Source of the DNA: Prevotellaceae bacterium
Lineage (GTDB): Bacteria; Bacteroidota; Bacteroidia; Bacteroidales; Bacteroidaceae
DNA length: 60,260 nt
Assembly (NCBI GenBank): GCA_031262785.1
Contig: JAISHB010000063.1
Location: 1-60,260 of the forward strand
Reading direction: 5' to 3'
Part shown: piece by piece, positions 7,576 through 56,638 of the stretch
Layout: each line of letters starts with the position of its first letter
Position numbering within the stretch: the stretch's first letter is position 1
Position numbers and translations under genes: made by a program
The notes under the pieces: model-generated
Database searches by the model: none
What the model saw: only the letters and a program-made list of their open reading frames with translations
Told to the model about the DNA's origin: nothing

Positions 7576-7921
7576 CTCCCGCGGGAAATGGGTTCGTTCC
7601 AAAATAAAACACGCTCCTCCCGCGGGAAATGGGTTCATCTCAAAAAGAAAGTACTCTCCTCCCGCGGGAAATGTGTTCGTCTGAAAATAAAACGTCCTCC
7701 TCCCGGGGGAAATGGGTTCGTCTCAAAAAGAAAGTGCTCTCCTCCCGCAGGAGAAGGGTTCGTTCCAAAATAAAACGTCCTCCTCCCGGGGGAGAAGGGT
7801 TCATCTCAAAAAGAAAGTGCTCTCCTCCCGCGGGAGAAGGGTTCGTTCCAAAATAAAGCATCCTCCTCCCGGGGGAGAAGGGTTCATCTCAAAAAGGAAG
7901 TAATCTCCTCCCGCGGGAGAA
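7576..7921. repeat. palindromic tandem array, nine copies, alternating 41/42-bp spacing
   Basis: Copies of CTCCCGCGGGA or a one- or two-base variant begin at 7576, 7617, 7659, 7700, 7742, 7783, 7825, 7866 and 7908. The spacings alternate 41, 42, 41, 42, 41, 42, 41, 42. Two linker types alternate (one with CCAAAATAAAAC, one with CTCAAAAAGAAAG), so the true period is an 83-bp dimer. The core TCCCGCGGGA is a 10-bp perfect palindrome. The array fills the gap between the carboxyltransferase promoter and the hairpin at 7957; both strands stay open for long stretches, but these frames are repeat artefacts. Confidence 0.95.
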
Positions 7922-7956
7922 GAGTGTTTTCTTCACGGTTGAACAGATTAGAGCGA

Positions 7957-7989
7957 AAAGACCGGTCTGCATCACACAGACCGGTCTTT
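7957..7989 (-). terminator. terminator of the TonB receptor/beta-helix lipoprotein operon
   Basis: AAAGACCGGTCTG and CAGACCGGTCTTT form a perfect 13-bp stem with a 7-nt loop. On the minus strand it is followed by a further T (TCTTTTC), 32 bp after the stop at 8022. Confidence 0.85.
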
Positions 7990-8021
7990 CAATCAGGAGT
8001 GATTCACCTTTAAAAATCGCA

Positions 8022-9530
8022 TCAATAGGCGGTGTTTTGCGGATCGAAGTTGGTCCATCCCTCCATCCAATCATCGGAGGCATCGCGGAAGGCGCCGATG
8101 TAGCCGTCGCTGCCGTCGCCCAGCATCGTCGAGGGAAGATAGTTCTGCCCCAGATGCGCCGGGTCGGTAAGCGTCAGCTCGGCTTCGGAGGTCTCTTTGT
8201 TGGAGGATTCGCTCAGGAAGAAGGTGTGCGACCACGAGGGTTGCGAGGAGTCGTATACGCCCTCTTGGCGGTCAATCAACAGCTCGTCTTCATACTTTTT
8301 GTTGTTGTCCGAACCCAGGGCGGCCATCGAGGCAAACCAGACGTTGCGCAGGTGTAGTTTTCCCTCTTGCGCATACTGCGGCGTGTTTCCTTTTTCTCCA
8401 TCGATAATCAGCCCGATGGGGAAACCCACGGCCAGCATGTTTTCGAGGTTGAGCCGACTGCTGCGGCGAATCTGCACGGCAGCCTGGAATTTACCCAGTT
8501 TGGAATCGTTGTTGGGGACGAGATCTCCGGCGGTGATGTAGTTGCTGTTGTTCTGGAAGTCACTGTTCCGGGCGGTTATCGGGCCGATGAGCGTGACGTT
8601 CCGGAAGGTGGCCGAGGTGAAGGGAGCGGTGTCGGCACCGGTGGCATTGTTGTCCGATTCGAAGCCGTTGGATTGGGAAGTATCGGCAATGCGCGGATCG
8701 CGCACGGCCAGGGCATATTGTACGGTGCCGCTGAATCCGTTGTCGGTGTCGAAATCGTCGTCCCATCCTTTGTAGGCAATCAGGTGGGTGGCGTTCATCG
8801 AGCCTCCGAACCACTCGTAGGAGTCGTCGTTGGAGTAGGATACTTGCAGGTGATCGACCACGGTTTTAGTACCGACCGAGCCAAAGGTGATGCCGTTGAT
8901 CTCTTTGTCGGTCTGGAACGGATAGCCGGCAAACTCCACCCGCACGTATTGATAGATACCCGAATAGTCGGCATCGTTATCACCGCCGTGCTTGGTGCGC
9001 GGGCCTCCTTCTATCTGTTGCTCGCCGGCATTGTTGAGGGCGCGGCCGCAGATAATCAGGCCTCCCCAGTCGCCCGGACGGCGCTGTCCCGGAGCCGCTT
9101 CGCTGGTCATGACGATGGGCTGGGTGCGGGAGCCTTTCATCTCTACCACGCCGCCGGGTTCTACAATCAGGGCGGCTTTGGTTTGCTTCTGTCCTTTCAG
9201 GATGGTGCCGGCGGGAATGCGCAGCACAGCGCCGTCGGCCACATAGATCCAGCCGCGCAGCAGATAGGTGCCTTTGGCCAGGGTGACATCGCCGGTGAAG
9301 ACGAACTCTTGCGTGCCGTTGCCCAGCTCGGTGCCGTGGTTGAACAGGATGCCTTTGCTGTAGGCGGTGGTTCCATTGTAGGTGACCTCCGGGTCGGTCT
9401 GTTCCGTCTCGGGCTTATTGAGGTCGGGGTCGTTCTCTTGGGTGCAAGCGCTCAAGAGATGGGTGGTGGCAATGGCTGCACACCACAGGGCGGTGCATCC
9501 AACTTGTTTGAAGAATCTTTTCATTTCCAT
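8022..9530 (-). CDS. surface lipoprotein with parallel beta-helix fold
   Basis: 502 residues (or 500 if the second ATG at 9524 is used). The N-terminus is a type II signal peptide with lipobox LLSAC (Cys29), then a short acidic linker (TQENDPDLNKPETEQ). The rest is rich in G, N and D with regular strand-like repeats (GTYLLRGWIYVADGAVLRI, GGVVEMKGSRTQPIVMTS, PGDWGGLIICGRA), as in right-handed parallel beta-helix lipoproteins of Bacteroidetes. No catalytic motif is recognisable. It begins 20 bp after the stop of a TonB receptor, and such lipoproteins commonly accompany a receptor, so surface binding or capture for that receptor is the best inference. A strong hairpin follows. Confidence 0.8.
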   Translation of the reverse strand: MEMKRFFKQVGCTALWCAAIATTHLLSACTQENDPDLNKPETEQTDPEVTYNGTTAYSKGILFNHGTELGNGTQEFVFTGDVTLAKGTYLLRGWIYVADGAVLRIPAGTILKGQKQTKAALIVEPGGVVEMKGSRTQPIVMTSEAAPGQRRPGDWGGLIICGRALNNAGEQQIEGGPRTKHGGDNDADYSGIYQYVRVEFAGYPFQTDKEINGITFGSVGTKTVVDHLQVSYSNDDSYEWFGGSMNATHLIAYKGWDDDFDTDNGFSGTVQYALAVRDPRIADTSQSNGFESDNNATGADTAPFTSATFRNVTLIGPITARNSDFQNNSNYITAGDLVPNNDSKLGKFQAAVQIRRSSRLNLENMLAVGFPIGLIIDGEKGNTPQYAQEGKLHLRNVWFASMAALGSDNNKKYEDELLIDRQEGVYDSSQPSWSHTFFLSESSNKETSEAELTLTDPAHLGQNYLPSTMLGDGSDGYIGAFRDASDDWMEGWTNFDPQNTAY

Positions 9531-9550
9531 TTTAGTTTTTAAGTTGATAA

Positions 9551-12337
9551 TTAGAATGTGTAGCCTGCGGAGAGCTGATAGCTTCGTCCGGGGCGATAGC
9601 TTCGGGTGGTCTCTTCAATGGTTCGCCGTTGACCGTCAATGGTCACCTCTTCGAACTGTTTGAAGTGGTAGCGTTCGGCCAGCAGGTCGCGCACGGTGGC
9701 TTTGAGTTCCCACTTGCCCAGTTGTTTGCCCAGCGAAAGGTCTACGCCGTTGCGCGGCATCTCATAGGAATTGGGAATGTTGCGGGCATCGCCGTCGGAC
9801 GAACTGCCGTAGCGGTTGCCCACGCCGATGATGCGCTTGCCGATGCGGTTGTAGAGCAGGGCGGCATTCCATCCCTGCTCGGGATGTGTGTAGAACAGGC
9901 CGGCGTTGATGAGATAGGGCGATTGTCCTTGCATGGGGCGGTTGATGTTGCGACTGCCCGCGGGAAATTGCACGCGGCTGTGAATCAGGGCGGCATTGAG
10001 CGAGAGGCTCAAGCGGGGCAATCCCATGAAGTCGAGACGTTTGCGGACGTCCAGCTCGATGCCGTAGTTGTTGGCGCCCTCGGCATTGACGTAGGAGTAG
10101 ACGGGGTCCGTACCGCCACTCATGGTGTAAGTCCATTCGATGGGATGATTGAAATGTTTGTAGAAGAGGGCTACGGAGAGTTGTTCACCGGCCGAGGGAT
10201 ACCACTCGTAACGCACATCTACGTTGTGAATATAGGCGGCCTGGAGCGAGGCGTTTCCCATCACGTTGCTACCCAGGTCGAAATCGTAATAGACCGAGGT
10301 GGAGAGTTCCCGAAACTCCGGACGGTTGACCGATTTGCCGTAGGCCAGTCGCAACTGATGGCGCTCGCCGAGCTGGTAAGTGGCATTGAGCGAAGGGAAG
10401 AAATCGCGGTAGGTGTAGTAAGTGCTCTGCAGGCTCTCTTCATAGGAACGGGTATTCATACGCAACTCCTGGCGGGCATATTCATAGCGCACTCCGGCAT
10501 AGAAGTTGAACGTGCCCACGGGCAGATTCACTCCCACGTAGCCCGAGGCCTGCGTGTTACGCCCCTCGTAGTTGTTGCGGTAGTCTACCTCCTCTTGCAT
10601 GAAGAGTTTGTCGGGGCCGTAGTTGGCATCAATCAACACGTTGTTCACCACATCAGGGTCGAACTCGAAGCGTGGGGGAAGGGTGTTGTTCGGATGCCAG
10701 CCATACTGAAACTGGCGGGTTTGGTAGCGACGGGTTCGATACTCGGCATAGGCGCCGGCTTTGAGTGTACCCAGCGGGAAGTCGAGACGATAGTTCACAT
10801 TGGCCGAGGCGATGTGTTCGACCAGGCGGGTAAACTCACGGCTGATGCGGTAGATGCTCAGCTCGTTGTCGGTGCGGTCGGTACGTTCGATGAGGCGACG
10901 ATCGGGCAGGTCGCGGTCGGCATAGGCATAGCCGATGCTCCAGTCGAGGCGCTGACCATCGAAAGTATGCTTGCCGGTGAACTGTCCGTTGTAGACGTTG
11001 CGGATGGAGGAGTAATATTCCATGTTGTGGATACGGTCGGGTTGGGCGTTGAAGCCATTACGCTCCGAGTAGCGCTCTTTGGTGATGCGGTTGAAGATAT
11101 TCTTGAGTTCGTAGCGATGGGGGCTACCTCCGGAGGGCTGGAAGGATAGGTTGAGCATCGCACCCAGCCGGGTGTCGCGGTTGTATTGGTCATCGACGGC
11201 ACTGCGCAAGGCTACGCTCTTGTCGTTGGCCGTATCGTAGGGACCGTACAGGGAGTTATCCATGTGTAGCAAGGTCTTATAGGATTGGGTGTAGTTAATG
11301 GCGGCCAGCAGACTCACCGCTCCTGCGCGTCGGGTTTCCCAACGGTGGTTGTAGGCGGCGTTGGCCTTCCAGTCGGCCGCCGGATGCAGGCTTTTCAACC
11401 GCCAGTCGGTATTGAAGCCGTTGCTCACTATGTCGATGACCCGGGCATCACCTCCGACTCCGAAGGAGGGAAAGCCGGCACGCTCGCCCCGAGAGGATAG
11501 GAAATTGCGCAGGTGCGTCTGGTCGTTCAGCACGCCGGCTACGGAGAGTTGCAGGGCATTGCCCCCTACCGGCACCTCTTTGGTATTGACCAAGATGAAG
11601 CCGCCGGTGAAGTCGGCCGGGTATTCTGGTGCGGGGCTTTTGACCACAATCAGGTTGTCGAGCTGCGAGCCGGGTATGATGTCGAACGAGAAGGCACGGG
11701 AGTCGGCCTCCGAACTGGGCACGGCACTCCCGTTGATCCATACATTGTTGTAGCGTTGGGATAGGCCCCGCACCATCACAAACTTCTCATCGATGATGGA
11801 GATGCCCGGCACGCGCTTAATCACCTCCGATGCATCGCGGTCTTGTGTCCGGCTGATTTGCTGCGCCGAGACGGCCGATTGCACCACTAAGCTGCGTTGC
11901 TGCTCGAGCAGCAAGGCAGCCTCGTTGCTGCGCCGGAGGGTGGCGGTGACGGCTACTCCCTCGAGGGTGGTGCTTTCGCTCTCGAGCTGGAGCTGCAACG
12001 GCTCCTTATCCGAAGAGGCGCTGCTGCCAACTTGCAGCTCCTTGTAACCGATGTAACGTATATATAAGGTGTATTCCCGGGCCGGGAAGGTCAGGAGGAA
12101 CTCCCCGTCGGCATTGGTCACGGTGGCGTGCGGGGTGCCGGCCACCTGCACGGTGGCTCCGATGAGTGGCTCGCCCGTCTGCTTATCCACCACCACGCCC
12201 CGCAGGGTTTGGGTGGTGCCGGCAGGCTCATCGGGACGGGAGGGTGGCGAAGCGGTGGCCACCAGTGTGCAAAGCGTGAGGAACAAGAGAAGAAGCAGTA
12301 CCTTCCCCCAGTCGATTTTGTAGATTACGCTGTTCAT
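9551..12337 (-). CDS. TonB-dependent outer-membrane receptor
   Basis: About 928 residues from the third in-frame ATG (12337); ATGs at 12343 and 12352 are alternatives. The signal segment is VLLLLLFLTLCTLVATA. A carboxypeptidase-like domain follows (LRGVVVDKQTGEPLIGATV), then a plug domain with VIKRVPGISIIDEKFVMVRG and YNNVWINGSAVPS, and a 22-stranded-type barrel ending in SYQLSAGYTF with terminal aromatic Phe. It is the first gene of a two-gene operon with the beta-helix lipoprotein 20 bp downstream. No SusD is present, so this is not a standard SusCD unit; iron, haem or another small ligand are possible substrates, but the sequence does not decide. A near-consensus -7 box (GACCTTTG) lies at 12372-12379 on the minus strand. 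Confidence 0.88.
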   Translation of the reverse strand: MNSVIYKIDWGKVLLLLLFLTLCTLVATASPPSRPDEPAGTTQTLRGVVVDKQTGEPLIGATVQVAGTPHATVTNADGEFLLTFPAREYTLYIRYIGYKELQVGSSASSDKEPLQLQLESESTTLEGVAVTATLRRSNEAALLLEQQRSLVVQSAVSAQQISRTQDRDASEVIKRVPGISIIDEKFVMVRGLSQRYNNVWINGSAVPSSEADSRAFSFDIIPGSQLDNLIVVKSPAPEYPADFTGGFILVNTKEVPVGGNALQLSVAGVLNDQTHLRNFLSSRGERAGFPSFGVGGDARVIDIVSNGFNTDWRLKSLHPAADWKANAAYNHRWETRRAGAVSLLAAINYTQSYKTLLHMDNSLYGPYDTANDKSVALRSAVDDQYNRDTRLGAMLNLSFQPSGGSPHRYELKNIFNRITKERYSERNGFNAQPDRIHNMEYYSSIRNVYNGQFTGKHTFDGQRLDWSIGYAYADRDLPDRRLIERTDRTDNELSIYRISREFTRLVEHIASANVNYRLDFPLGTLKAGAYAEYRTRRYQTRQFQYGWHPNNTLPPRFEFDPDVVNNVLIDANYGPDKLFMQEEVDYRNNYEGRNTQASGYVGVNLPVGTFNFYAGVRYEYARQELRMNTRSYEESLQSTYYTYRDFFPSLNATYQLGERHQLRLAYGKSVNRPEFRELSTSVYYDFDLGSNVMGNASLQAAYIHNVDVRYEWYPSAGEQLSVALFYKHFNHPIEWTYTMSGGTDPVYSYVNAEGANNYGIELDVRKRLDFMGLPRLSLSLNAALIHSRVQFPAGSRNINRPMQGQSPYLINAGLFYTHPEQGWNAALLYNRIGKRIIGVGNRYGSSSDGDARNIPNSYEMPRNGVDLSLGKQLGKWELKATVRDLLAERYHFKQFEEVTIDGQRRTIEETTRSYRPGRSYQLSAGYTF

Positions 12338-12518
12338 ATCCATATCAGGCAAATTGTATTGGTTTTCTGCCGCAAAGGTCGGACAGGGAGGTTTCGCCCG
12401 CTATACAAGCGGCAGAAGTTTACAAGGCAATGCCGTTACGATGTGGTAACAAGCGGGGATGAAACCCGCTGTCGGGCAGATTTAAGGTACCGGATGTGTC
12501 CATATACCTAAAAAAGTT

Positions 12519-12526
12519 TATCTTTG
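12519..12526 (+). promoter_or_regulatory. -7 box of the PAS histidine kinase gene
   Basis: TATCTTTG matches TAnnTTTG, 54 nt before the ATG at 12581. It lies in the divergent gap shared with the TonB receptor operon. Confidence 0.6.
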
Positions 12527-12580
12527 CAACTGGTAACCGTCAACTAACAGACCATACATAACTAAAAGCTTCTCTATAGT

Positions 12581-14122: not shown

Positions 14123-14142
14123 GTCGGGTGTGCCGACTTTTT
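14123..14142 (+). terminator. terminator of the PAS histidine kinase gene
   Basis: GTCGG, a 5-nt loop and CCGAC are followed immediately by TTTTT, starting at the first base after the stop codon. Confidence 0.65.
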
Positions 14143-14262
14143 ACCTTTTCACCCCCGCCGATGGGAGGGTGCGGGGCAAGGGTATGGAGCCGGAAGCCGC
14201 GCTCCATGCACTGTGCAAACTATTTACCTGCTTGCGATGCCCGGACGAGCCGGTAGGCCGGC

Positions 14263-14760: not shown

Positions 14761-14784
14761 GGTGTTAACTATCTAAAAGGGAAT

Positions 14785-17070: not shown

Positions 17071-17098
17071 ATCAGAAGTGTGTAATGGGGTGGGATAA

Positions 17099-21588: not shown

Positions 21589-21624
21589 GAAACACCCTTG
21601 CGAAGCGCTTCGCAAGGGTGTTTC
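21589..21624. terminator. 36-bp perfect palindrome after hppA
   Basis: GAAACACCCTTGCGAAGC is followed directly by its exact reverse complement GCTTCGCAAGGGTGTTTC. It lies 22 bp after the hppA stop and probably acts as its terminator, although no long T-run follows. An extra imperfect CAAC/GTTG flank extends it. Confidence 0.7.
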
Positions 21625-21800
21625 ATTGTTGTACGGGGCTGTCGTCGGGCAGCGCGAAGCTTCTGCATACGTGGAGGCTTCGTTGTTAGCCGGAGGCGAG
21701 GCTTCCGCATACGTGGAGGCTTCGCCCCTGGCCGACACCAGCTCCATACAGCGATGAGTGAAGCAAGCGGCGGCCGACACCAGCTCCACTCATCGCTGTT
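21617..21800. repeat. diverged 42-bp tandem array between hppA and the protease gene
   Basis: GCATACGTGGAGGCTTCG occurs at 21665 and 21707 and GGCCGACACCAGCTCCA at 21730 and 21772, each pair exactly 42 bp apart. Flanking blocks align at the same period, giving about four to five decayed units. ACAGCGATGAGTG (21748-21760) and its reverse complement CACTCATCGCTGT (21787-21799) form a 13-bp inverted repeat. A minus-strand frame reads a 14-residue repeat, but no real gene is supported. Confidence 0.8.
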
Positions 21801-21834: not shown

Positions 21835-24396
21835 TCAGCGTTTGACGAACTTGGCGCGGTAGGACTTTCCGTCGGCAGTCTGCACCTGCACAATGTAGTA
21901 GCCCGCCGGCAAGTGCCCCACCGAAAGCCGGTAGCGGTCGTCCGCCGCCCGGGCGGGTTGCTGCTGCAGTACCAATTGTCCGCCCACATCGTAGATGCGG
22001 ATCATCGTCGCCTCCCCCGGAGCGCGCAAGGTCAGCGTCTCTCCCACGGGTTGGTCGTAGATGAGGAGCGACGACGGATCGCCGGCAGGCTGCTCGATGC
22101 CGGTGGCGGGCGTCACCGAGAAGTAGGCCTGCAGCACCGAGATGTTGGGGTTGTACCCTTCCGTCTGCGGCTCGCACAACACCACCACATAGTCGCCCAC
22201 CGGCAGCCGGGCGTCGAACATCTCCTCGAAGGCGTAGGGCACGTTCTTCTCCACCTGCACATTGACGTAGTGTTGCGCCAGCGAACTCCCGCCGCTGGCG
22301 GGGAAGAAGCCCATGTACAAGGTTTTCGAGTAGACGTTGCCCAGCCCGCTCAAGGAGAAGTCGGCCAACATCTTCACCGACTCGCCCACGGCCAAGGTGT
22401 TCTTCTCCAGGCGGCCGTTACGCACCACCAACGCGGGAGTTCCGTAGGCAAAATGCACCGTGACCTGCTGCGAGGCGCCCACGGCGTAGAGCGCGTTGCC
22501 CCATTGCACGGCCGGCGTAATCAAGTACTCCCCTTCCGCCAGGTCGGTGTTGACCGCGGCGCGGTTGGAGACCAGCAAGCCGCTCAAGTTGAGCTGCTGC
22601 TCGGTGCCCGGCTTGAGCCAGAGGTCGCGCGTGGCGATGAACGAGGTGAGGGTGGGGTTTTCCCCGGCCGTTTGGATGGCGATGCCCGTCTGGCCGTAGA
22701 AATCATCGCCCGTGCGGTTGCTCACATTGGCCAGTGTCAGGTTAAAATAGCCGTTGCGGCCGCCGAAGAGCTTCTGTTCTACCGACAACGTGCCCGCGAG
22801 CCTGCTTTTCACCTCGAAGGGCAGCGTAAACGGGGTGATGACGCACTCCGTCCCACTGACCACCAGGGTAAACTGCGTCTGGAATCCGGCGCCCCCGCGC
22901 ATGGGCACCCAATCGGCGTCGCGCTGCTCTTTGGAGGCGGGGTAGAGCGCATACGTTCCGTCCGTCATCGTCGCGGGGATTTGCACTTCCAGGGGAATCC
23001 GGCCGTAACCGTAGGCCGAGGCGAGGTCGGAGAGCGGATACGGGGTGATGTTCAACCGTTCCCGGGTGCCGTCCTTCTGGGCAATGATGCCCAACTGCCC
23101 GCTGACAAAGCGGGTGCTCACATTAAAGCAGTTCTGCAGCGTCATCGTGAAGGATTCGCCCTTCGCCACCGTTGTTTGGCTCAGCAGCACGTCGTCTTCC
23201 AGGATAAACTCCGAGGTGTAGACGGTACCTTCCTTGGGGGGCTGGAAACCCAGAATCATTCCTTGGTCACCCACGTAGCCGCCCTCTCCACTGTCGCCTC
23301 CGCCAATGCCGGTTGAATAGGGATTGAGCAGCGACACCTCGAAGTAGCCGTTGTTCGAGCCGCCCCAGCCCCAATTCACGTGCACCAGGTCCCCGTCGTC
23401 GTAGCCGTCGAAGACAAACTCGTGCCCCACCGACGGAGAGTAGCCGTCGTAGATCACCGGCCTCCCCTCGCTCAGCTCCGTCTTGAGCAGTTCCATCCAC
23501 TCCGGGGCCGAGTAGTAGCTACGCTTGAGGTAGCGCATGTTCGCATCGTAGCCGAAGTGGTCAATCAGGGCGTCGGCCACGGCAAACGACATCGCACCCG
23601 AACTGCCGGGCGAATAGTTCATATCCACCGCCACGCCGCAGGCATACATCAGCTGGGCGATGGCCTTGAGTTGCGTCTGGCTGGGCGTGCCCGTCTGGTA
23701 TTGCGGCAGCGTGTTGTCCCAGTCGAACGTGGTGTTGCCGTAGTCGAACCAGTAGGTGGTCTTGTTGCTGCTCAACTCGTAGGAGTGCTGCCCGATTCCT
23801 TGCGCGGGATAGTGATAGAACTTTAGGATGGTGGCCATGGCCGTGGCTACGCATCCGGTCACGCTTCTGCCGCCGCCCACCACCGGACAGTCGTTGTTGT
23901 AGGGGGCGTCTTGGTTGTAATTGATCTCGCCCAACAGCGGAGAGACGCTCGGGGCGAGCGCCGCCCGGGGCTTTTGCTGCAGCGGCTCGGCGATGTCGGG
24001 CTGCCTGACCTCCAGCGTGCCATACGCCTGGCGGTATTGCCGCAGCCAGCCCAACATGTTTTCGGGAAGAGAGGAGGTGACGAAAGCCCCCTCGTGCGAA
24101 TAGCCCAGGATGGGACGCATCCGGTCGTCGCCCGAAACAATCACATAGGCGGCATCCCCCCGATTGTATACATAGAAGGCAGCCTCGGCCGTCTGTCCGG
24201 TGCGCGTCGAGGCATCGTCCAACAAATCGCCCGAGAGCGCCACCAGCTGCACTTCATCACCCGCGTTGCGGGTGGTTTGCCCCGATTGGGCAAAGAATGT
24301 ACGGGCAATGGTCAGTGCCTCTTGGGCGGAACGCTGGGCACCCCATACAATCCCTCCGGCTACAAACAGCCAAGCTAAGAGTAGTACCTTTTTCAT
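21835..24396 (-). CDS. C10 family (streptopain/PrtT-like) cysteine protease with type IX secretion sorting domain
   Basis: 853 residues from the ATG at 24396; the open frame is 16 codons longer, but MKKVLLLAWLFVAGGIVWGA is a clean signal peptide. A Spi-like propeptide region (about 20-145) precedes the C10 domain. The catalytic cysteine is Cys182 in SVTGCVATAMATILKFYHYP and the histidine is His325 in SVGHEFVFDGYDD, with NWGWGG downstream. A long beta-rich region follows. The last 75 residues (from PVGETLTLRA to AKFVKR) form a type A type IX sorting domain with the usual MIRIYDVGGQLV and LPAGYYIVQV strands. Relatives include PrtT of Porphyromonas gingivalis and interpain of Prevotella. Secretion by type IX to the surface or medium and protein degradation are expected. 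It lies 119 bp downstream of the SusCD-lipoprotein genes, behind a hairpin. Confidence 0.93.
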   Translation of the reverse strand: MKKVLLLAWLFVAGGIVWGAQRSAQEALTIARTFFAQSGQTTRNAGDEVQLVALSGDLLDDASTRTGQTAEAAFYVYNRGDAAYVIVSGDDRMRPILGYSHEGAFVTSSLPENMLGWLRQYRQAYGTLEVRQPDIAEPLQQKPRAALAPSVSPLLGEINYNQDAPYNNDCPVVGGGRSVTGCVATAMATILKFYHYPAQGIGQHSYELSSNKTTYWFDYGNTTFDWDNTLPQYQTGTPSQTQLKAIAQLMYACGVAVDMNYSPGSSGAMSFAVADALIDHFGYDANMRYLKRSYYSAPEWMELLKTELSEGRPVIYDGYSPSVGHEFVFDGYDDGDLVHVNWGWGGSNNGYFEVSLLNPYSTGIGGGDSGEGGYVGDQGMILGFQPPKEGTVYTSEFILEDDVLLSQTTVAKGESFTMTLQNCFNVSTRFVSGQLGIIAQKDGTRERLNITPYPLSDLASAYGYGRIPLEVQIPATMTDGTYALYPASKEQRDADWVPMRGGAGFQTQFTLVVSGTECVITPFTLPFEVKSRLAGTLSVEQKLFGGRNGYFNLTLANVSNRTGDDFYGQTGIAIQTAGENPTLTSFIATRDLWLKPGTEQQLNLSGLLVSNRAAVNTDLAEGEYLITPAVQWGNALYAVGASQQVTVHFAYGTPALVVRNGRLEKNTLAVGESVKMLADFSLSGLGNVYSKTLYMGFFPASGGSSLAQHYVNVQVEKNVPYAFEEMFDARLPVGDYVVVLCEPQTEGYNPNISVLQAYFSVTPATGIEQPAGDPSSLLIYDQPVGETLTLRAPGEATMIRIYDVGGQLVLQQQPARAADDRYRLSVGHLPAGYYIVQVQTADGKSYRAKFVKR

Positions 24397-31376: not shown

Positions 31377-31704
31377 GCAAAGTTTTCCGGCATAAAAACG
31401 TGCGTATTGATGCCGTTGCAAAGTTTTCCGCCATAAAAACGTGCGTATTGATGCCGTTGCAAAGTTTTCCGGCATAAAAACGTGCGTATTGACGCCGTTG
31501 CAAAGTTTTCCGCCATAAAAACGTGCGTATTGACGCCGTTGCAAAGTTTTCCGCCATAAAAACGTGCGTGTTGACGCCGTCGCAAAGTTTTCCGCCGTAA
31601 AAACGTGCGTATTGACGCCGTTGCAAAGTTTTCCGCCGTAAAAACGTGCGTATTGACGCCGTTGCAAAGTTTTCCGGCGTCAAACTGCGCGGTTTGACGC
31701 TGCC
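31377..31704. repeat. 41-bp tandem array, eight units including a degenerate last one
   Basis: GCAAAGTTTTCCG begins at 31377, 31418, 31459, 31500, 31541, 31582, 31623 and 31664, always exactly 41 bp apart. Each unit also carries AAAAACGTGCGTATTGACGC or a one-base variant, with the small dyad GCGT-ATTG-ACGC. The last unit turns into a stronger hairpin (31677-31700). Since 41 is not a multiple of three, the minus-strand frames cycle through all three phases and all stay open; they are not credible genes. This array fills most of the 526-bp gap between susC and the EamA transporter gene. Confidence 0.95.
31677..31700 (-). terminator. hairpin downstream of the prmA-truA-eamA operon
   Basis: GCGTCAAAC, a 6-nt loop and GTTTGACGC form a perfect 9-bp stem 12 bp after the EamA-family stop codon. 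It lacks a T-run and belongs to the last, degenerate unit of the 41-bp array. Confidence 0.45.
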
Positions 31705-38088: not shown

Positions 38089-38122
38089 CCTTTTACCCAC
38101 GATCCATCCACCTTTTACCCAC
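38089..38122. repeat. two-copy 22-bp direct repeat
   Basis: CCTTTTACCCAC occurs at 38089 and 38111, exactly 22 bp apart, in the 65-bp gap between the kinase and the histidine-kinase-like gene. The period equals that of the array at 56507. Confidence 0.6.
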
Positions 38123-46515: not shown

Positions 46516-46891
46516 ATTGTATCCAAGTCATTTTCTTCGCGCAACGATCGTTCTTCTGTTGTGTTGCGCTCATTTCCGCCGCGCAATGACCGTTCTTCTG
46601 TTGTATTATGCTCATTTCCGCCGCGCAATGACCGCTTTTTAGTTGTATTGTGATCATTTCCGCCGCGCAATAATCGTTTTTTAGTTGTATTGTGATCATT
46701 TCCGCCGCGCAATGACCGCTTTTTAGTTGTATTGTGATCATTTCCACCGCGCAATGACCGCTTTTTAGTTGTATTGTGATCATTTCCGTCGCGCAATGAT
46801 CGTTTTTTAGTTGTATTGTGATCATTTCCACCGCGCAATGACCGTTCTACAGTTGTGTTGCGTTCATTTCCGCCGCGCAATGACCGTTTTT
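46516..46891. repeat. 42-bp tandem array upstream of uvrB, nine units
   Basis: GCGCAA starts at 46539, 46581, 46623, 46665, 46707, 46749, 46791, 46833 and 46875, exactly 42 bp apart. Units share TTGTATTGTGATCATTTCC and end GCGCAATGACCG with small changes. Because 42 is a multiple of three, every frame gives a 14-residue repeat (for example EMITIQLKSGHCAA on the minus strand); these are artefacts. The array lies 25-400 bp upstream of the uvrB -7 box. Confidence 0.95.
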
Positions 46892-46935: not shown

Positions 46936-46969
46936 AAAGGCTGCCTGTTCTCGCGAGCAAGCAGCCTTC
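46936..46969 (-). terminator. hairpin, left copy of a 34-bp direct repeat flanking the TA remnant
   Basis: AAGGCTGC and GCAGCCTT are the arms of an 8-bp stem. The 34-bp block is repeated with a single G/A difference at 47364-47397. On the minus strand it follows the toxin remnant's stop by about 25 bp. Confidence 0.75.
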
Positions 46970-46992
46970 ATTCGTACGGGTTTACCGATTCG

Positions 46993-47273: not shown

Positions 47274-47363
47274 GTGTGGGGATTGATTAGTTAATTCTAT
47301 TTGTCTGCAAAGGAACTAAAATTATCCGAGACCTCAAAGAGGCCGGAAACTATAGCGCATCAC

Positions 47364-47397
47364 AAAGGCTGCCTGTTCTCGCGAACAAGCAGCCTTC
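47364..47397 (-). terminator. hairpin, right copy of the 34-bp direct repeat
   Basis: The same 34-bp block as at 46936, with arms AAGGCTGC/GCAGCCTT and one base difference. It lies 50 bp after the stop of the large lipoprotein gene on the minus strand and probably terminates it. Confidence 0.75.
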
Positions 47398-47447
47398 GCC
47401 TTCTTAATTTTACTTCTTATAAGTCTGATATCATAGAAACGATTGTT

Positions 47448-49607: not shown

Positions 49608-49639
49608 AATAGATAATATTAGTTGATTTATTATGGAGG

Positions 49640-49647
49640 CAAATGTA
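49640..49647 (-). promoter_or_regulatory. -7 box of the large lipoprotein gene
   Basis: The minus strand reads TACATTTG (TAnnTTTG), 32 nt before the ATG at 49607. Confidence 0.65.
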
Positions 49648-49815
49648 CGCGAAACCTTATATATACATCTATATACAGACCCCAACCTTGTCTACATTGC
49701 AAGAAAAAGCTTATACACCGATTCTACAATGTGACCACGTGGATGGCAACAGCGCGAAATAGTATCAGATAGTGGACAAACCAAGGCCGGCCTGTGTCGG
49801 CTTGGTTGCATTTGC

Positions 49816-52155
49816 TCACTCCTTAACCGCTCCGTTGTATCGTTTGGTTTCGACGCACCGAATCGTTAATGTTTCGCTGCCGGCTTGCATGCGGAAGTCG
49901 CCCGCCTCGAGTATCCACCGGCCGTCGTGCCCCACAAAGGCGAGGTCGGAGGCGGACAGCGTCAGGGTGACGGTGCGTTGCTCGCCGGGCGCCAGCTCAA
50001 TCTTTTCGAAGGCGCGCAAGCGGCGGTTGTCGGGCGTGAGTGAAGCCACCAAATCGCTGCTGAAGAGCAAGACGCTCTCTTTGCCCGTGAAGCCGCCGGT
50101 GTTGCGCACCTCCACGCTGAAGGTGAGCCGGTCGTCGGCGCCGAACGAGGGTTTGTCCACGCGCAGGTTGCTGTAGGCGAAGGTGGTGTAGCTCAAGCCG
50201 TAGCCGAAGGCCCACTGTTGCGAGACGACGGCGTCGTAGTTGTAGGCGCCTTCCATCCGGTCACGCGATTCGGAGGGCTTGTAGTCGTAGGTCACCAGCG
50301 AATTGATCTCCTTGGGATAGGTAAAGGGCAGCTTACCGCTGAAGTTGGCATCTCCGGCCAGCAAAGCGGCCAACGCCTCGCCGCCGTAATTACCCGGAAG
50401 CATGATATGAACCACGGCAGCCGCCAGCGGCTCGATGTCGGAGAGGATGCGCGGGCGCCCTTCGTTCAACACTAAGATGAGGGGCTTGCCGGTAGCAGCC
50501 AACGCTTTCACCAAGTCGCGCTGGGCAGCGGAGAGATGGAGGTCGGTGAGGTTGCCCGGCGTTTCGCAATAGGAGTTTTCCCCGATGCAGACCACGAGGT
50601 AGTCGGCACCTGCGGCGGCGGTTACGGCCTTCTCAATCTCGGGGGTGTTCTCTTCCCACCAAGTGCCGTCCGCTTGGTAGGTCACGCCCGGCTCGTAGAG
50701 AATCTGTTCGGCCCCGAAGCGGGCGGTAAAAGCTTCGAGAATCGTGTGGTACTGCGCGGCACAAGCATCGGCTTTGTCGCCCTGCCACGAATAAGACCAT
50801 CCGCCGTTGAGCGTGCGCATGGAGTGGGCGTTGGGGCCGGTGAGCAGCAGTTTCTTGCCGACGGGCAGCGGAAGGATGCCGCCTTGGTTCTTCAACAGCA
50901 CCATCGATTCGGTGGCCGCCTGCCGTGCGGCAGCGGCGTGGGCTGTACTTCCAAATTCGGGGAACTCCTTTACATTATAATAAGGTGTCTCGAACAGACC
51001 GAGGCGAAGCTTCATGCGGAGCACGCGGCGCACGGCGTCGTCGATACGCGACATCTTCACCGCGCCCTCCTCGACCAATTGCTTGAGGTAGATGCAGAAA
51101 TCCCACGAGTAGGGATCCATCGACATGTCGATGCCCGCATTGATAGCCAGCTTAATCGCTTCCTTTTTGTCGGCGGCAACGCGGTCGCGTTTGTAGAGGT
51201 TGTCGATGTCAGCCCAGTCGGTCACAATCAATCCGTCCCACTGCAGGTCGTTCTTGAGCCACTCGGTGAGCAGTTCGTAATTGGCATGGAAGGGCATTCC
51301 GTTGTTCATGGCCGAGTTAACCATCACCGAGAGGGCACCGGCACGGATGCCCGCCAAGAAAGGAGCGAAATGTTTCTCACGCATCTCTTGGGGTGAGATG
51401 GACGAGGGAGTGCGGTCTTTGCCCGAAACCGGTACGCCGTAGCCCATGTAATGTTTCAGGCAGGCGGCAACCTGATGTGCGCCGATGTGGTTGGGATCGT
51501 CGCCCTGAAAGCCGAGCACCGCCTGGCGTCCCATCTGCGCGTTGAGGTAGGCATCTTCGCCGTAGTTCTCCCACATGCGCGGCCAGCGGGCATCGCGTCC
51601 AAGGTCAAGCACCGGAGCATACGTCCACGGAATGCTGCCCGCCTTGGTTTCGTAGGCCGAGATGCGTGCCCCTTCGCGCACCAAGGCGCGGTTGAAGGTG
51701 GCAGCCATGTTGATGCCTTGCGGGAAGAAGGTGGCGCCCTGCGTGTAGGAGGCGCCGTGAATTTGATCGACGCCGTAGATGCAGGGGATGCCGATGGCCT
51801 CCATCGACTTCTGTTGGATGCGGGTGATGATTTGTTGCCACTTCTCCGGCGTTTGGGCGATGCCGTCGGGTACGTTCAGGATGGAGCCTACTTTGTATTT
51901 GCCGATAACGGTGTCGAGCATCGCCTCGTCGAGCTGGAAGTCGCTGGCGGGATGATCTTTCCGGGTGATGACGTCGATGGTTAGTTCGGTCATCTGCCCG
52001 ATCTTCTCATCGAGCGACATCTTCTTTAACAGGGATTCTACACGTTGTTCAATAGCTGAGTTACGGGGAATGGCCGGAGCAGGTTTGTTTTGCGCCGTTG
52101 CGGCCAGCACTACACTGCAAGATAGGCAGGCCGCCAAGAGGATGTTGTGGTTCAT
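49816..52155 (-). CDS. glycoside hydrolase family 3 beta-glucosidase
   Basis: 779 residues from the ATG at 52155 (signal peptide [21 protein letters not shown]; the upstream 18 codons overlap the promoter). The GH3 N-terminal barrel has [31 protein letters not shown] and KHYMGYG. The nucleophile is Asp313 in [16 protein letters not shown]3 C-terminal domain ([20 protein letters not shown]) and a fibronectin III-like domain ([14 protein letters not shown] onward) follow. Size and architecture match periplasmic BglX-type enzymes acting on beta-glucosides. It is monocistronic, not part of a SusCD locus here. Confidence 0.95.
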
Positions 52156-52184
52156 GGGATAGAAGATTAATAGATAATTCCCGA

Positions 52185-52192
52185 CAAAGATA
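52185..52192 (-). promoter_or_regulatory. -7 box of the GH3 gene
   Basis: The minus strand reads TATCTTTG, 29 nt before the ATG at 52155. It lies back to back with the opposite -7 box at 52225, so the two polymerase sites overlap heavily. Confidence 0.7.
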
Positions 52193-52224
52193 GCGATTAA
52201 TTTTCCCATTCGGATTCTTCTCTA

Positions 52225-52232
52225 TACTTTTG
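52225..52232 (+). promoter_or_regulatory. -7 box of the MBOAT/SGNH cluster
   Basis: TACTTTTG matches TAnnTTTG, 28 nt before the ATG at 52261. Its -33 region overlaps the start region of the GH3 promoter, so transcription of the two may interfere. Confidence 0.7.
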
Positions 52233-52260
52233 CTCGCATAATCGCTGTAATTCAACAAGT

Positions 52261-52659
52261 ATGACCCATCGTTTAAACACCAATAAGCAGTTTATGATTG
52301 GCAACGGCATCTTGGCTTTCGCCGTTATTGTGGTGGTTGTAGTCTTCGTTTACATGAGCATGAGGCTGCAACAAAAGCAAGAAGCGAACCACCGCTTTCA
52401 AGAGAAGTACACCTTGGTACTCACCAAAGGTTTCACGGGCGATTCCATCCGCGTGCTCCTCAACGACAGCGTGCTCTGCAACCGTCGCGTAACTTCCGAG
52501 CCGCTCACCCTCGAGGTGCAACGCTTTGCCGAGCATAGCGCCCTCTTCATTGTCGACAACGTAACGGAACAGCTCGAATTGTTCGAACTGAGCGAGCAGG
52601 GAGGCACCTTCCGCTTCGAGAAGGAGAACGGTGAGGTGAAACTACTCAGCCGGCAATAA
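52261..52659 (+). CDS. small membrane-anchored protein, unknown function
   Basis: 132 residues. One hydrophobic segment (GILAFAVIVVVVVFVYMSMR, about 16-35) near the N-terminus anchors it, followed by a short coiled region (QQKQEANHRFQEKY) and a small beta-rich domain (TGDSIRVLLNDSVLCNRRV, LTLEVQRFAEHSALFIVDN). No family is recognised. It starts the cluster that ends with the MBOAT protein (28 bp to the next gene), so a helper role in the same envelope process is possible but unproven. Confidence 0.8.
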   Translation: MTHRLNTNKQFMIGNGILAFAVIVVVVVFVYMSMRLQQKQEANHRFQEKYTLVLTKGFTGDSIRVLLNDSVLCNRRVTSEPLTLEVQRFAEHSALFIVDNVTEQLELFELSEQGGTFRFEKENGEVKLLSRQ

Positions 52660-52687
52660 CTTCCCCTGCCCGCCTCACGTCTGCCGC

Positions 52688-54076
52688 ATGCCGATGATGC
52701 ACAAGAATTACCTGACACATACCCTCCTGTGGACGTTGCTGGTGTTGACCGGCTTGCTATTCCTCCACTATCTTCCGCCTCTGAGGCTGGAAGGACACGC
52801 CTTGCGGCAAGTTGATTTGCTGAGCGACGTCCGTCTTCCGCATCCATCCGCCGTACCGGTAGAGAACGATTCCCTACCACTCCTGCCTACCGTCCCCCCC
52901 AAAGCATTCGTAGATACCTGCCGCACCGGCATGACTTGCATCGAAGACTACAGCGACTCTACTGCCCGCGGCATGGAGCCGTTCTACCGTGCACTTGCCG
53001 AGCTGGAAGTGCGTGAACGCAACGTACGCATTGCCTATTTCGGAGATTCGTTCATCGAGGCCGATATTCTGACGGCCGACTTACGCCGCCTGTTGCAGGA
53101 GCGCTTCGGAGGAAGCGGCGTGGGCTATGTGGACATCACCTCCCAAACCTACGGCTATCGTCCCACGGTGCGCCATCGTTTCGAGGGATGGAATAGTCAC
53201 GCCATCACCGACTCTGCCCACTTCGATGCCCGCAAGCAGGGCATCTCGAACCACTACTTCGTGCCTCGTGCCACGGCCTTCGCCGAGTATAGCGGGCAAA
53301 GCAAGTATGCCTCCCGTCTGGACACGGTACAGCAAGCCTCCATCTACTTCTACACGCAGGGCGAGGTCACCATCTCGGCCACCGTCAATCAGCAGGGCAA
53401 GCAGACACGCACCTTCTACGCTGCGGGCGACTTGCAGGAGATGGAGGTCAACGGAGATATCGGCAGCGTGCGCTGGAGCGTAGACCAAGCCGACTCCACC
53501 CTCTTCTACGGCGTGACGATGGATGATACCAGCGGCATCTCGGTTGATAACTTCGCGTTGCGGGGCAGTTCGGGTTTGTCGCTCGCCTCGGTACCGATGC
53601 AGTGGATAGAGGATTTCAACCGCGAGCGACCCTACGACCTGCTCATCCTGCAGTACGGACTGAACGTAGCCACCGAGTATGGGCGCAACTACGACAAGTA
53701 TCGCGCCGGCATGAACGTAGCCATTGCCCACCTGAAGAAAGCCTTCCCGCAGGCCGGCATCCTACTGGTGAGTGTGGGCGACCGTGACTACCGCACCGAC
53801 GAGGGTACGCTCCGCACCATGCCCGGCATCCGTAACCTCGTGCGTTATCAACAAGAGATTGCCGCCACCAATGCCATCGCCTTCTGGAATCTGTGGCAAG
53901 CCATGGGAGGCGAAGGAAGCATGGCCAAGCTGGTGGAAGCCAAGCCGGCCATGGCCAATCTGGACTACACCCACATCAACTTCCGGGGGGGAAGGCACCT
54001 GGCCGGATTGATGTACGGCACGCTGATGTACGGCAAAGCACAATACGACCGACGACAAGGCCATGCACAAGAATAG
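52688..54076 (+). CDS. SGNH/GDSL-type hydrolase, membrane-anchored
   Basis: 462 residues. An N-terminal membrane segment (LLWTLLVLTGLLFLHYLP, about 13-30) precedes an SGNH domain. Ser121 in IAYFGDSFIEADILTADLRR is block I, LILQYGLNVATEYG corresponds to the Asn block, and DYTHINFRGG (His429) carries the final D-x-x-H. This GDS(H/F)IxxD subfamily is often encoded beside MBOAT acyltransferases. As an extracytoplasmic esterase/transferase it probably works with the MBOAT gene two positions downstream. Its stop overlaps the next start by 14 bp. Confidence 0.88.
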   Translation: MPMMHKNYLTHTLLWTLLVLTGLLFLHYLPPLRLEGHALRQVDLLSDVRLPHPSAVPVENDSLPLLPTVPPKAFVDTCRTGMTCIEDYSDSTARGMEPFYRALAELEVRERNVRIAYFGDSFIEADILTADLRRLLQERFGGSGVGYVDITSQTYGYRPTVRHRFEGWNSHAITDSAHFDARKQGISNHYFVPRATAFAEYSGQSKYASRLDTVQQASIYFYTQGEVTISATVNQQGKQTRTFYAAGDLQEMEVNGDIGSVRWSVDQADSTLFYGVTMDDTSGISVDNFALRGSSGLSLASVPMQWIEDFNRERPYDLLILQYGLNVATEYGRNYDKYRAGMNVAIAHLKKAFPQAGILLVSVGDRDYRTDEGTLRTMPGIRNLVRYQQEIAATNAIAFWNLWQAMGGEGSMAKLVEAKPAMANLDYTHINFRGGRHLAGLMYGTLMYGKAQYDRRQGHAQE

Positions 54077-54983
54077 GCTCCCCCTCCTCCTCCCGCTGCG
54101 TCGGCAGCTGCTGATGCTACTGCTGGCCGTTGCCGCCGCAGCGGCGACGGCACAAGATCGCCTGTTGCCCGAGCTGATGCCCCAGGCACTCACCCCCGGG
54201 GTGGATACCTTGCGTACCTATCAGCACATCGTCCTGCAGGTAAACGAACCTACCGTGCAGCTGCCCGCCTCGTTCCGGGGTACCGAACCCAATATACTCG
54301 AGGATAGCCTGGAGGTACTCGCCCCCTTCTGGGAGAAGCTTCGCCGGAGTCTGCTCCGCACCCGGGCGGACAGCGTTCGTATCGTGCACATCGGCGACAG
54401 TCATGTGCGGGGGCACCTCTTCCCGCGTGCCGCCGGCGAGCTGTTGCAGAGGCGTTTCCGCCGTCTAAGCTACACCGATAGGGGCATCAACGGAGCCACC
54501 TGCGTCTCGTTTACCAATGAGGCCCGCATCCAACAGATTGCAGCCCTCAAGCCTGACCTACTGATCCTCTCGCTGGGTACGAACGAAAGCCACAACCGCC
54601 GCTACAATTCGCAGACGCACTACCACCAGTTGGACGAACTGGTGCGTCTGCTGCGCGCCGCCCTACCCGACGTGCCGCTGCTCCTGACCACTCCGCCGGG
54701 GTCGTACGACCGTTCGGGCACGCGCCGGCGCCGTACCTACAAGGTCAATCCGCGTACCGAGCCGGCCGCCCGCACCATTCGTCGCTTTGCCTTGCATCAC
54801 GGCCTGGCCGTGTGGAATCTGTATGAGATAGCCGGAGGCAGTAGGCAGGCCGCCCGCAACTGGTGGGAGGCAGGCCTGATGCGTCCCGACCATGTGCACT
54901 ACCTGGCGCCGGCTTACGTGCTGCAAGGTGAATTGTTGGCGCAAGCCCTCATCTATGGCTACAACGACTATGTGGGATATTGA
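54063..54983 (+). CDS. SGNH/GDSL-type hydrolase, exported
   Basis: 306 residues with an N-terminal hydrophobic export signal (LLMLLLAVAAAAATA, about 16-30). SGNH motifs: Ser113 in VHIGDSHVRGHL, Gly and Asn in LSLGTNESHNRR, and Asp276/His279 in DHVHYLAPAY. It is a second, more compact esterase-type paralogue next to the first. It overlaps both neighbours (14 bp each), so the three are translationally coupled. A role in transferring or removing O-acyl groups on a surface polymer is inferred. Confidence 0.9.
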   Translation: MHKNRLPLLLPLRRQLLMLLLAVAAAAATAQDRLLPELMPQALTPGVDTLRTYQHIVLQVNEPTVQLPASFRGTEPNILEDSLEVLAPFWEKLRRSLLRTRADSVRIVHIGDSHVRGHLFPRAAGELLQRRFRRLSYTDRGINGATCVSFTNEARIQQIAALKPDLLILSLGTNESHNRRYNSQTHYHQLDELVRLLRAALPDVPLLLTTPPGSYDRSGTRRRRTYKVNPRTEPAARTIRRFALHHGLAVWNLYEIAGGSRQAARNWWEAGLMRPDHVHYLAPAYVLQGELLAQALIYGYNDYVGY

Positions 54984-56451
54984 TCTGCACCGCCTGGCCG
55001 ACCTCTTGGCCTACCACAAGGAAGCGCCCATGCTCTTCAGTAGTGGTCTCTTCCTGTGGCTATTCACCGCGTTTGTGCTCGTCTACTTCTGCTTGCGTGG
55101 CAAGCTCACCGGCCGACTGCTGTTTGTAACGGCCTTTTCGTACTACTTCTACTACAAGAGCAGCGGCACCTACTTTTGGCTGCTGGCCACGGTAACGGTG
55201 AGCGACTTCCTGATAGCCCGGGCGATGGCACGAACCGACCGGCCGGTGCGCCGCCGCCTGTGGGTGGCACTGAGCCTGCTCATCAACCTGGGGATGCTGG
55301 CCTACTTTAAGTACACCAACTTCCTGGTAGAGCTGGTGCAATCACTGACGGGAGGCACGCTGCATCACTACGACATCTTCCTGCCCGTGGGTATCTCGTT
55401 TTTCACCTTCCAGTCGCTCAGCTACACCATCGATGTGTATCGCCGGCAGCTCACCCCCTTAGACAGCTTGCTCGACTATGCCTTCTACGTCTCCTTCTTC
55501 CCGCAGCTGGTGGCCGGCCCGATCGTACGGGCACGCGACTTCATTCCGCAGATTCGCCGGCCGCTGTCCGTAACCCGGGAGATGTTCGGATCGGGGGTGT
55601 TCCTCCTGATGACCGGCCTCTTCAAGAAAGCGGTTATTTCGGACTACATCAGCATTAACTTCGTCGAGCGCATCTTCTCCAACCCTTCGCTCTACTCGGG
55701 TGTGGAGAACCTGCTGGGCATCTACGGCTATGCCCTGCAGATCTACTGCGACTTCTCGGGCTACAGTGATATGGCCATCGGCCTGGCCCTATTGCTGGGC
55801 TTCCGTTTTCCGGGGAACTTCGACTCGCCCTATAAGTCGGCCAGCATCACCGAATTCTGGCGTCGGTGGCACATCTCGCTCTCGAGTTGGCTGCGCGACT
55901 ATCTCTACATCTCGCTGGGCGGCAACCGGCGCGGCAAGGGACGGCAATACCTCAACCTCCTGCTTACCATGTTGCTGGGCGGACTCTGGCACGGGGCCTC
56001 GTGGAATTTCATACTCTGGGGCGGGTTGCACGGACTGGCGCTGGCGCTGCATAAGATGTGGCAGACCCTGATGCGCCGCCCCAAGGGGTGGCGTCCCGTG
56101 GGGGGACGCCGCGTGTTGGGAGTGGTGGTCACCTTCCACTTAGTCTGTTTGTGCTGGATCTTCTTCCGGCAGAGCGACCTAAGTATGAGCATGGAGATGC
56201 TCCGACGCCTCTTCACCGCCTTCCATCCCGAACTGCTGGGGCAGCTGCTGGCGGGCTACCCGGCCGTCTTCGCATTGATGACGCTGGGCTTCCTGCTCCA
56301 CTTCTGTCCCCAGGGGTGGGAGCAGGCCTGCCGGGGTGCCGTCATTCGCCTGCCGCTGCTGCTTCAGGCCGCGGCGATGATACTCCTCATCTATCTGGTG
56401 ATTCAGATCAAGAGCACCCAGATACAACCCTTCATCTACTTCCAGTTCTAA
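54970..56451 (+). CDS. MBOAT family O-acyltransferase (AlgI-like)
   Basis: 493 residues from the ATG at 54970 (MWDIDLHRLADLLAYHKEAP), inside the previous gene's end; the upstream codons of the open frame are out-of-frame artefacts. About ten membrane segments. FPQLVAGPIVRARDFIPQ and YCDFSGYSDMAIGLALLLGF are MBOAT signatures, and the catalytic His is His341 in GGLWHGASWNFILWGGLHG. AlgI/PatA/DltB-type proteins pass acyl groups across the inner membrane to extracytoplasmic glycans. The two SGNH partners upstream match the PatA-PatB/AlgI-AlgJ scheme. Which polymer is acylated is unknown. Confidence 0.92.
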   Translation: MWDIDLHRLADLLAYHKEAPMLFSSGLFLWLFTAFVLVYFCLRGKLTGRLLFVTAFSYYFYYKSSGTYFWLLATVTVSDFLIARAMARTDRPVRRRLWVALSLLINLGMLAYFKYTNFLVELVQSLTGGTLHHYDIFLPVGISFFTFQSLSYTIDVYRRQLTPLDSLLDYAFYVSFFPQLVAGPIVRARDFIPQIRRPLSVTREMFGSGVFLLMTGLFKKAVISDYISINFVERIFSNPSLYSGVENLLGIYGYALQIYCDFSGYSDMAIGLALLLGFRFPGNFDSPYKSASITEFWRRWHISLSSWLRDYLYISLGGNRRGKGRQYLNLLLTMLLGGLWHGASWNFILWGGLHGLALALHKMWQTLMRRPKGWRPVGGRRVLGVVVTFHLVCLCWIFFRQSDLSMSMEMLRRLFTAFHPELLGQLLAGYPAVFALMTLGFLLHFCPQGWEQACRGAVIRLPLLLQAAAMILLIYLVIQIKSTQIQPFIYFQF

Positions 56452-56506
56452 CCTTGCGGGGCTTGCCCTGCCACTGCCCCCTCCGCCTACGGGAGGAGGC
56501 ACCCCT

Positions 56507-56638
56507 GTCCGGGTTTCACGGGACAGCAGTCCGGGTTTCACGGGACAGCAGTCCAAGTTTCACGGGACAGCAGTCCAAGTTCAACGGGACAGCAGTCCAA
56601 GTTTAGCCGGACAGCAGTCCAAATTTGGCGAGACAACA
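56507..56638. repeat. 22-bp tandem array, six units
   Basis: GTCC begins units at 56507, 56529, 56551, 56573, 56595 and 56617, always 22 bp apart. The core is CAAGTTTCACGGGACAGCA with small changes. GTCC and GGAC in each unit are an inverted pair, extended to CTGTCC/GGACAG in the first unit. The array lies between the convergent MBOAT and hemN genes; the rest of this 242-bp gap shows nothing else. Confidence 0.93.

Follow-up and report, generated by a model that had tools for sequence, protein, structure and literature searches.

Intergenic minisatellites of shared period and dissimilar sequence in a Prevotellaceae draft genome and its relatives

The stretch of DNA considered here, referred to below as the window, comprises 60,260 nucleotides from a Prevotellaceae bacterium (contig JAISHB010000063.1 of assembly GCA_031262785.1) and is contig 52 of the draft genome here termed G000 (135 contigs totalling 2.34 Mb; completeness 76%). 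Several of its gaps between genes hold tandem arrays whose units are of nearly the same length and of unlike sequence. This combination, pointed out in an initial annotation made from the letters of the window, holds throughout the sampled part of the genome, where 49 of 56 tandem arrays have a period of 21–23 or 40–43 bp and the units of different families are little more alike than shuffled ones (mean best identity 0.431 versus 0.428 ± 0.0017). The copies are in tandem, head to tail, imperfect and tens of bp long, as in minisatellites. The unit length of minisatellites is usually considered accidental; here the length is kept with the sequence free, the step is not the same in all species of one genus, and it is visible already in isolated two-copy repeats. 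The explanation preferred, tentatively and with its chances put somewhat below even, is that the arrays are non-coding minisatellites in which a palindrome has been copied at a step fixed by the cell's machinery, with hairpin-mediated multiplication following.

Periods were surveyed with Tandem Repeats Finder (TRF; score at least 80, period at least 15) in stretches of G000 amounting to 658 kb, or 28% of the genome, in 60 stretches (1,061 kb) from relatives in the genus, and in controls consisting of 19 stretches from other families of the order, 23 named Bacteroidales loci and 42 non-Bacteroidales loci. The choice of stretches followed convenience of contig number and was partly guided by earlier matches, and each species is represented by one genome in all comparisons. 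Because draft assemblies tend to break at repeats, the counts may be lower bounds. In G000 42 of the 56 arrays have periods of 40–43 bp, 7 of 21–23 bp and 4 of 82–83 bp, i.e. double steps, with 3 others. The 54 arrays of the genus relatives are distributed very differently (Fisher 4e-17 for the choice of step), with 40 at 21–23 bp (30 at 22, 9 at 23 and 1 at 21), 1 at 41, 2 at 44 and 11 others; a 41-bp array is also present in a second species, G005. Neither range is represented among the 10 arrays of the non-Bacteroidales loci, from which the periods of G000 and of the genus both differ (Fisher 9e-8 and 8e-6, respectively), and 12 of the 21 arrays in the named Bacteroidales loci fall within the two ranges. 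Other families of the order gave 15 arrays with periods from 16 to 114 bp, 0/15 being counted in the ranges, although one array in G046, counted at 83, also shows 21 and 42, and the distant genome G044 has three arrays of ~52 bp that by look belong to one family (locus L203). Outside the census, 15 further loci yielded 2 arrays, with periods of 22 and 21, both in one Bacteroidetes bacterium locus. The sharp peaks that the initial annotation had proposed to look for in a histogram of periods are thus present in the sampled stretches, at 22–23 and 41–42 bp and not at 21 and 42. Among 217 measured copies in arrays of the 42-bp class, 90 are of 41 bp and 117 of 42 bp (together 207 of 217), with 1 of 40, 8 of 43 and 1 of 44 bp, and over 9,985 aligned bases within such arrays there are 1124 substitutions and 122 indel events, indels being about ten times rarer.

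For the comparison between families, 25 of the 41–42 class were represented by 26 units, two 43-bp arrays being excluded; by their sequences most unit families look unrelated. Individual families are nevertheless dispersed, F3 and F5 each having matches on six contigs and F0 recurring in six sampled arrays. Flanks mostly differ between the copies of a family, F5 having the one clear tail; in F7, the right flank is common to three loci and starts with an inverted half unit.

Palindromes recur in these dissimilar units. A short-loop stem of at least 6 is present in 25 of the 56 units from G000 and in 8 of the 15 from the relative G019. When units were folded and compared with dinucleotide shuffles (84 arrays, retained after exclusion of coding arrays and off-peak periods), folding was better than in the shuffles, with mean z of -1.23 (n=46) and -1.72 (n=7) in G000 and, for the 22-bp class, of -1.55 (n=12) in G019, -1.45 (n=11) in G035 and -1.20 (n=5) in G015. 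The F0 hairpin, followed over 28 units, has 94.2% of cells paired and paired changes are seen, with covariation of 0.262 versus 0.109 ± 0.017 in shuffles and no more than 0.083 in slid controls. Some loops are present in either orientation, GGCG/CGCC and GGCA/TGCC in F0 and AGCA/TGCT in F5, and inspection by eye reveals F5 copies in which linkers are flipped with the dyad spacing still ~22 bp. Two abutting 42-bp arrays on contig 22 (L157:1396-1736) have one part in common, and a 22-nt piece is inverted in one of them (again by eye). In F3 two very different linkers take turns along much of the array and yield 41 and 42 bp, respectively. Of the 12 testable arrays of the 42-bp class, 9 have a dyad at both ends.

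The step is also apparent where there is no array. G000 has 23 exact repeats that stand alone outside arrays, of which 5 have a spacing of 42, 1 of 41, 2 of 84 and 4 of 21–23 bp; in the relatives, 13 of 38 are at 21–23, 9 of these at exactly 22. The controls have 3/12 at 21–23 in non-Bacteroidales and 6/47 at 21–23 plus 4 at 41–43 in other Bacteroidales, and a spacing of exactly 22, a value chosen post hoc, occurs in 0/59 of the pooled controls versus the 9/38 of the relatives (p = 1e-4). Pairs of palindromes lacking a common 6-mer were scored separately at spacings of 20–24 and 39–44, giving 3/20 and 2/20 in G000, 9/63 and 6/63 in relatives, and 5/69 and 10/69 in controls. Unrelated palindromes in these gaps are not clearly phased, on small numbers. 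This bears on what keeps the length. One possibility is selection for phasing, in which dyads lined up on a single face of the helix would be bound by a nucleoid protein or a regulator, so that only arrays close to whole turns survive. The sharpness of the step lengths would fit, as would 41.5 bp being about 3.95 turns of 10.5 bp and the 52-bp arrays of G044 being about 4.95 turns, and unrelated dyads in the relatives are slightly in excess at 20–24. It is nonetheless an unlikely explanation, given that the commonest short step is 22–23 and not 21, that a 31–32-bp class is missing among the 110 arrays of G000 and the genus (two are at 30 and two at 33), that unrelated dyads are not clearly phased, and that convergent, divergent and tandem gaps have arrays alike; a protein that reads sequence is unlikely since the dyad sequences differ between arrays. 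The proposal in the initial annotation that 21 and 42 bp correspond to two and four turns of B-DNA is not supported, as the short class is 22–23 and the two steps therefore fit no single helical repeat, and helical phasing was rejected as the main cause on this ground and for want of clear phasing of unrelated dyads. A protein wanting phased dyads should phase unrelated ones too, and since this is not clearly so, a fixed-length copying step is favoured. Of the two origins offered at the outset, a common expansion mechanism is accordingly the better fit, and a structure that selects length fits less well.

In location the arrays are almost all intergenic. In G000, with 85% of the sample coding by a home-made gene caller, called genes take in no more than 14% of any of 55 of the 56 arrays, and the remaining one lies in a called gene. 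Upstream of genes no array comes closer than 39 bp to the called start codon; downstream, arrays reach up to the gene ends. The initial annotation had placed three of the window arrays just upstream of −7 boxes, and the motif in question, TANNTTTG, is indeed present on the minus strand at 7497, 31238 and 46483. A link with promoters is unsupported, however, by the classes of gap: among gaps of at least 60 bp, arrays are in 9/27 convergent, 9/48 divergent and 22/130 tandem ones, promoter-less gaps being if anything richer (Fisher p = 0.067), and promoter enrichment was set aside for this reason.

Array position is poorly conserved, the same gene seldom having an array in relatives. Where a G000 gene has an array on one side, 2/57 comparisons with relatives show one on that side there too, little different from the 9/171 at sides lacking an array, and 17 usable order-conserved adjacent gene pairs have an array on neither side in any. 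Upstream of pyruvate carboxylase subunit B, where G000 has its 42-bp F3 array, the relative G018 has 17 copies of a 22-bp unit of unrelated sequence, the only strong array there among 29 relatives. Weak upstream arrays are present in G036 (27 bp, score 71) and G020 (22 bp, score 60), and G001 has a weak 21-bp array (score 68) some 0.8 kb off on the same side; the G019 upstream flank compared is just 161 bp. For uvrB, the 29 relatives show a single upstream array, of 24 bp, and a single one on the opposite side, of 15 bp, and the window array there has a DNA match in none of 60 relatives. No array accompanies the gene at 8022-9530 in 5 relatives. On the 3′ side of hemN in 8 relatives (flank of 535 bp in G019), the only array is that of G036, with a period of 20 bp and a low score of 62.

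The course of events envisaged for a palindrome copied at a machinery-fixed step is as follows. The architecture would often be H-(L-H)n, with a short palindrome H at a fixed centre-to-centre step and linkers L separating its copies. The copying machinery of the cell would set the step at which the palindrome is first duplicated, mostly 41–42 bp in the G000 species and mostly 22–23 bp in relatives, and slippage or template switching at hairpins would then multiply that step, keeping the palindrome arms complementary and occasionally inverting a loop or linker. Units may also have moved to other gaps, which would explain the presence of one family at up to six sites, with arrays building up wherever gene ends and promoters leave space. 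Template switching at hairpins is presumably the route of multiplication, and the ruler is presumably a property of the machinery and not of selection. In the accessible part of one report, template switching is described as able to produce stems that pair perfectly, changes matched across the stem and inverted loops (PMC8794818).

Several results pull the other way and have to be set against this reading. At 21–23 bp, isolated repeats in relatives do not differ from those of non-Bacteroidales (p = 0.73) and differ weakly from the pooled controls (9/59; p = 0.046). The isolated pairs are not fully independent, the six at 41–42 in G000 coming from five gaps with one abutting an array, and they could be decayed arrays. 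The slight excess of unrelated dyads at 20–24 in relatives is as phasing would have it. A clear short-loop palindrome is not universal (p ≤ 0.05 in 20 of 56 G000 arrays), folding no better than that of shuffles is seen in the three units of the long class from G019 and G035 (mean z of -0.22, n=1, and +0.32, n=2), and only 7 of 15 testable 22-class arrays have a dyad at both ends. In F0, changes on both sides are present in just 2 of 8 pairs and two of five measures, the two-sided pair count and further pair types, are not above shuffles; in F3 CGGG is present without its reverse complement. The between-family identity, small as its excess is, lies above all 25 shuffles, the top 20 family pairs reach 0.528 compared with 0.507 ± 0.006, and an 8-mer is common to 31 of 300 family pairs versus 18.3 in dinucleotide shuffles (range 10–31, with 1 of 60 shuffles reaching 31). 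As identities and common 8-mers exceed those of shuffles, some families may be distant kin.

Kinship of this sort is what would be expected if every array of a species descended from one old miniature inverted-repeat transposable element (MITE) like BrickBuilt of Porphyromonas gingivalis, with sequence decayed and length retained through the rarity of indels. That indels are about ten times rarer than substitutions (122 versus 1124) is in keeping with this, as are the presence of F3 and F5 on six contigs each and the common F5 tail. Such descent is nevertheless improbable: identities exceed those of shuffles by very little, the same steps are found in two-copy repeats built on other words, and the step varies among species of the genus. 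The initial annotation had drawn attention to GGCGGAAA as common to the 41-bp and uvrB arrays of the window; it is present in both, and has little weight because so many family pairs have some 8-mer in common. An ordinary tandem-repeat background that is regular by accident is very improbable, for although slippage yields minisatellites everywhere and other families of the order have many periods, those of G000 and the genus stand apart from the non-Bacteroidales ones. Mobilization of palindromic units by a RAYT (Y1) transposase, as for repetitive extragenic palindromes (REP) and bacterial interspersed mosaic elements (BIME), is scarcely credible despite the short intergenic palindromes, regular clusters and inverted linkers, and the two Y1_Tnp matches in G005, as there is no common palindrome sequence, Y1_Tnp was not found in the 76% complete G000 draft and is over cut-off in 7 of 36 genus relatives (1 more below, 28 of 36 without any match), and G001, G003 and G026, which are 99–100% complete and lack it, yet have one 22-bp array each per sampled 20 kb.

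The nearest known kind is that of the 22-, 23- and 41-nt minisatellites of P. gingivalis, a comparison that the initial annotation had suggested and that proves apt: Klein et al. (2015) describe BrickBuilt with 23-nt units and cite 22-nt repeats as well as MITE464/PgRS with 41-nt units, all within the accessible part of their text (PMC4596501). According to the same part, BrickBuilt too is intergenic, with imperfect head-to-tail units of near-equal short length at several loci per genome, predicted long stem-loops and a flanking tail (PMC4596501); a palindrome is possible across the junction of its 23-nt consensus units (TCTCRT|RTGAGA). It is there described as one sequence family with a leader and tail and with inverted ends like those of ISPg1/ISPg9 (PMC4596501), whereas the arrays here belong to many nearly unrelated families and are not BrickBuilt members. 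The BrickBuilt unit AGAYCATARTATCCTCTCRTRTG, sought as an exact pattern, is in 0 of 393 genomes of the order including G000, P. gingivalis perhaps not being among them, and neither inverted ends nor a 4-bp target duplication were seen by eye at F5 and F3 junctions. MITE464/MITEPgRS is alike in its 41-nt unit length, and in what is available of that report the inverted ends of those elements are described as almost identical to BrickBuilt's (PMC4596501). REP/BIME, in the portion of the source available, likewise have palindromic units and clusters with spacers, some of similar length and differing sequence, but carry a GTAG or CGTC tag per family and are mostly in inverted pairs (PMC3733652), unlike the direct tandem arrays here, where no RAYT was found in G000. 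An open-access literature search for such repeats, subscription papers being mostly outside its scope, gave nothing closer. Arrays of clustered regularly interspaced short palindromic repeats (CRISPR) are of the form repeat-(spacer-repeat)n with a palindromic repeat. Many of the present arrays resemble that form, though their linkers recur within and between arrays and the unit is 22 or 42 bp.

A wider form of the fixed-step reading is rather more doubtful than not: Bacteroidales would have trans-acting machinery equipped with its own ruler, which would copy palindromes ~22 or 42 bp away, according to species and whatever the sequence, and so start and lengthen arrays, with BrickBuilt and PgRS as two of its products. 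The retention of length with free sequence, the variation of the step between species and its presence in isolated two-copy repeats make the question of what sets a minisatellite period directly testable in culturable Bacteroidales, and would join the P. gingivalis repeats to a wider process that shapes intergenic gaps and probably breaks draft assemblies.

As to the window itself, four of the five arrays listed in the initial annotation were recovered by TRF at nearly the same places, and the fifth by other means. The first, 7576-7922, is of family F3 with core CTCCCGCGGGAG and comprises eight units, 41 and 42 bp long in alternation, and a terminal palindrome; TRF reports a period of 42 and, because the two unit lengths alternate, also of 83. 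It is upstream of a minus-strand gene (5652-7427), previously labelled carboxyltransferase, that is like pyruvate carboxylase subunit B with a match below curated cut-offs. The stretch 21617-21800 is absent from the TRF list even at score 30. Its self-match has a maximum at lag 42 (52%, versus 34% for the next lag) and it has two distinct words of 17–18 bp, each present again 42 bp on; what remains is a relic at 21665-21788, between convergent genes, of two abutting two-copy repeats each with a spacing of 42 bp, the first within predicted hairpins. A 41-bp array at 31377-31690 (TRF 31377-31676, period 41, 96% match) has seven full units and one partial; it belongs to F4, which matches contigs 13 and 46 more weakly. 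The two-copy 22-bp repeat reported at 38089 was confirmed, the 12-bp word CCTTTTACCCAC occurring twice with a spacing of 22 (38089-38122). The 42-bp array at 46538-46891 (TRF period 42) has eight full units and lies upstream of uvrB, ~96 bp before the called start. The 22-bp array at 56513-56626 (TRF period 22), with dyad GGACAGCAGTCC, is of family F5 with its matches on six contigs, and is followed at 56627-56668 by the tail GGCGAGACAACAACCGCGCTCAGAAGGCCTTTTGGGGAAGGT, common with few changes to at least 3 F5 copies; the right edge of this tail is the endpoint of three other F5 matches (contigs 38, 30 and 101). Searched against Rfam, the window has no match at gathering scores.

Among neighbouring features, a protein with a type IX secretion system (T9SS) sorting tail is encoded at 21835-24396, beside the diverged 42-bp repeat. 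A terminator-like hairpin, AAAGGCTGCCTGTTCTCGCGARCAAGCAGCCTT, occurs twice beside the uvrB array, at 46936-46968 and 47364-47396, 428 bp apart, and the UvrB of the window is 78% identical to that in a record of an uncultured Bacteroides sp. Carriage by phage was considered, and two unit words had no match in viral_contigs. An autonomous copy, i.e. a gene flanked by two arrays of the same family, was also considered; a pair of F0 arrays is present on contig 13, where a 575-aa gene (L093:608-2335) lies between the arrays with no Pfam match at E 1e-5, and the candidate was not retained. A further dispersed repeat type, AAGCCCCCTTTAGGGGGTTTGGGGGTG, in our own reading of its sequence probably of intrastrand-triplex type, stands beside several arrays (L092:673-787, where it is a 43-bp tandem, and near L087:4-80, L093:2354-2465, L095:15686-15744 and L162:787-968). 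Farther afield, the 20 kb of L203 in G044 also hold arrays of 16, 17, 20, 24, 30 and 33 bp, this species having its own step, and a contig of a Dysgonamonadaceae bacterium has, at L012:12067-12148, a two-copy 42-bp repeat with the palindrome CCCAAACAGTTTGGG.

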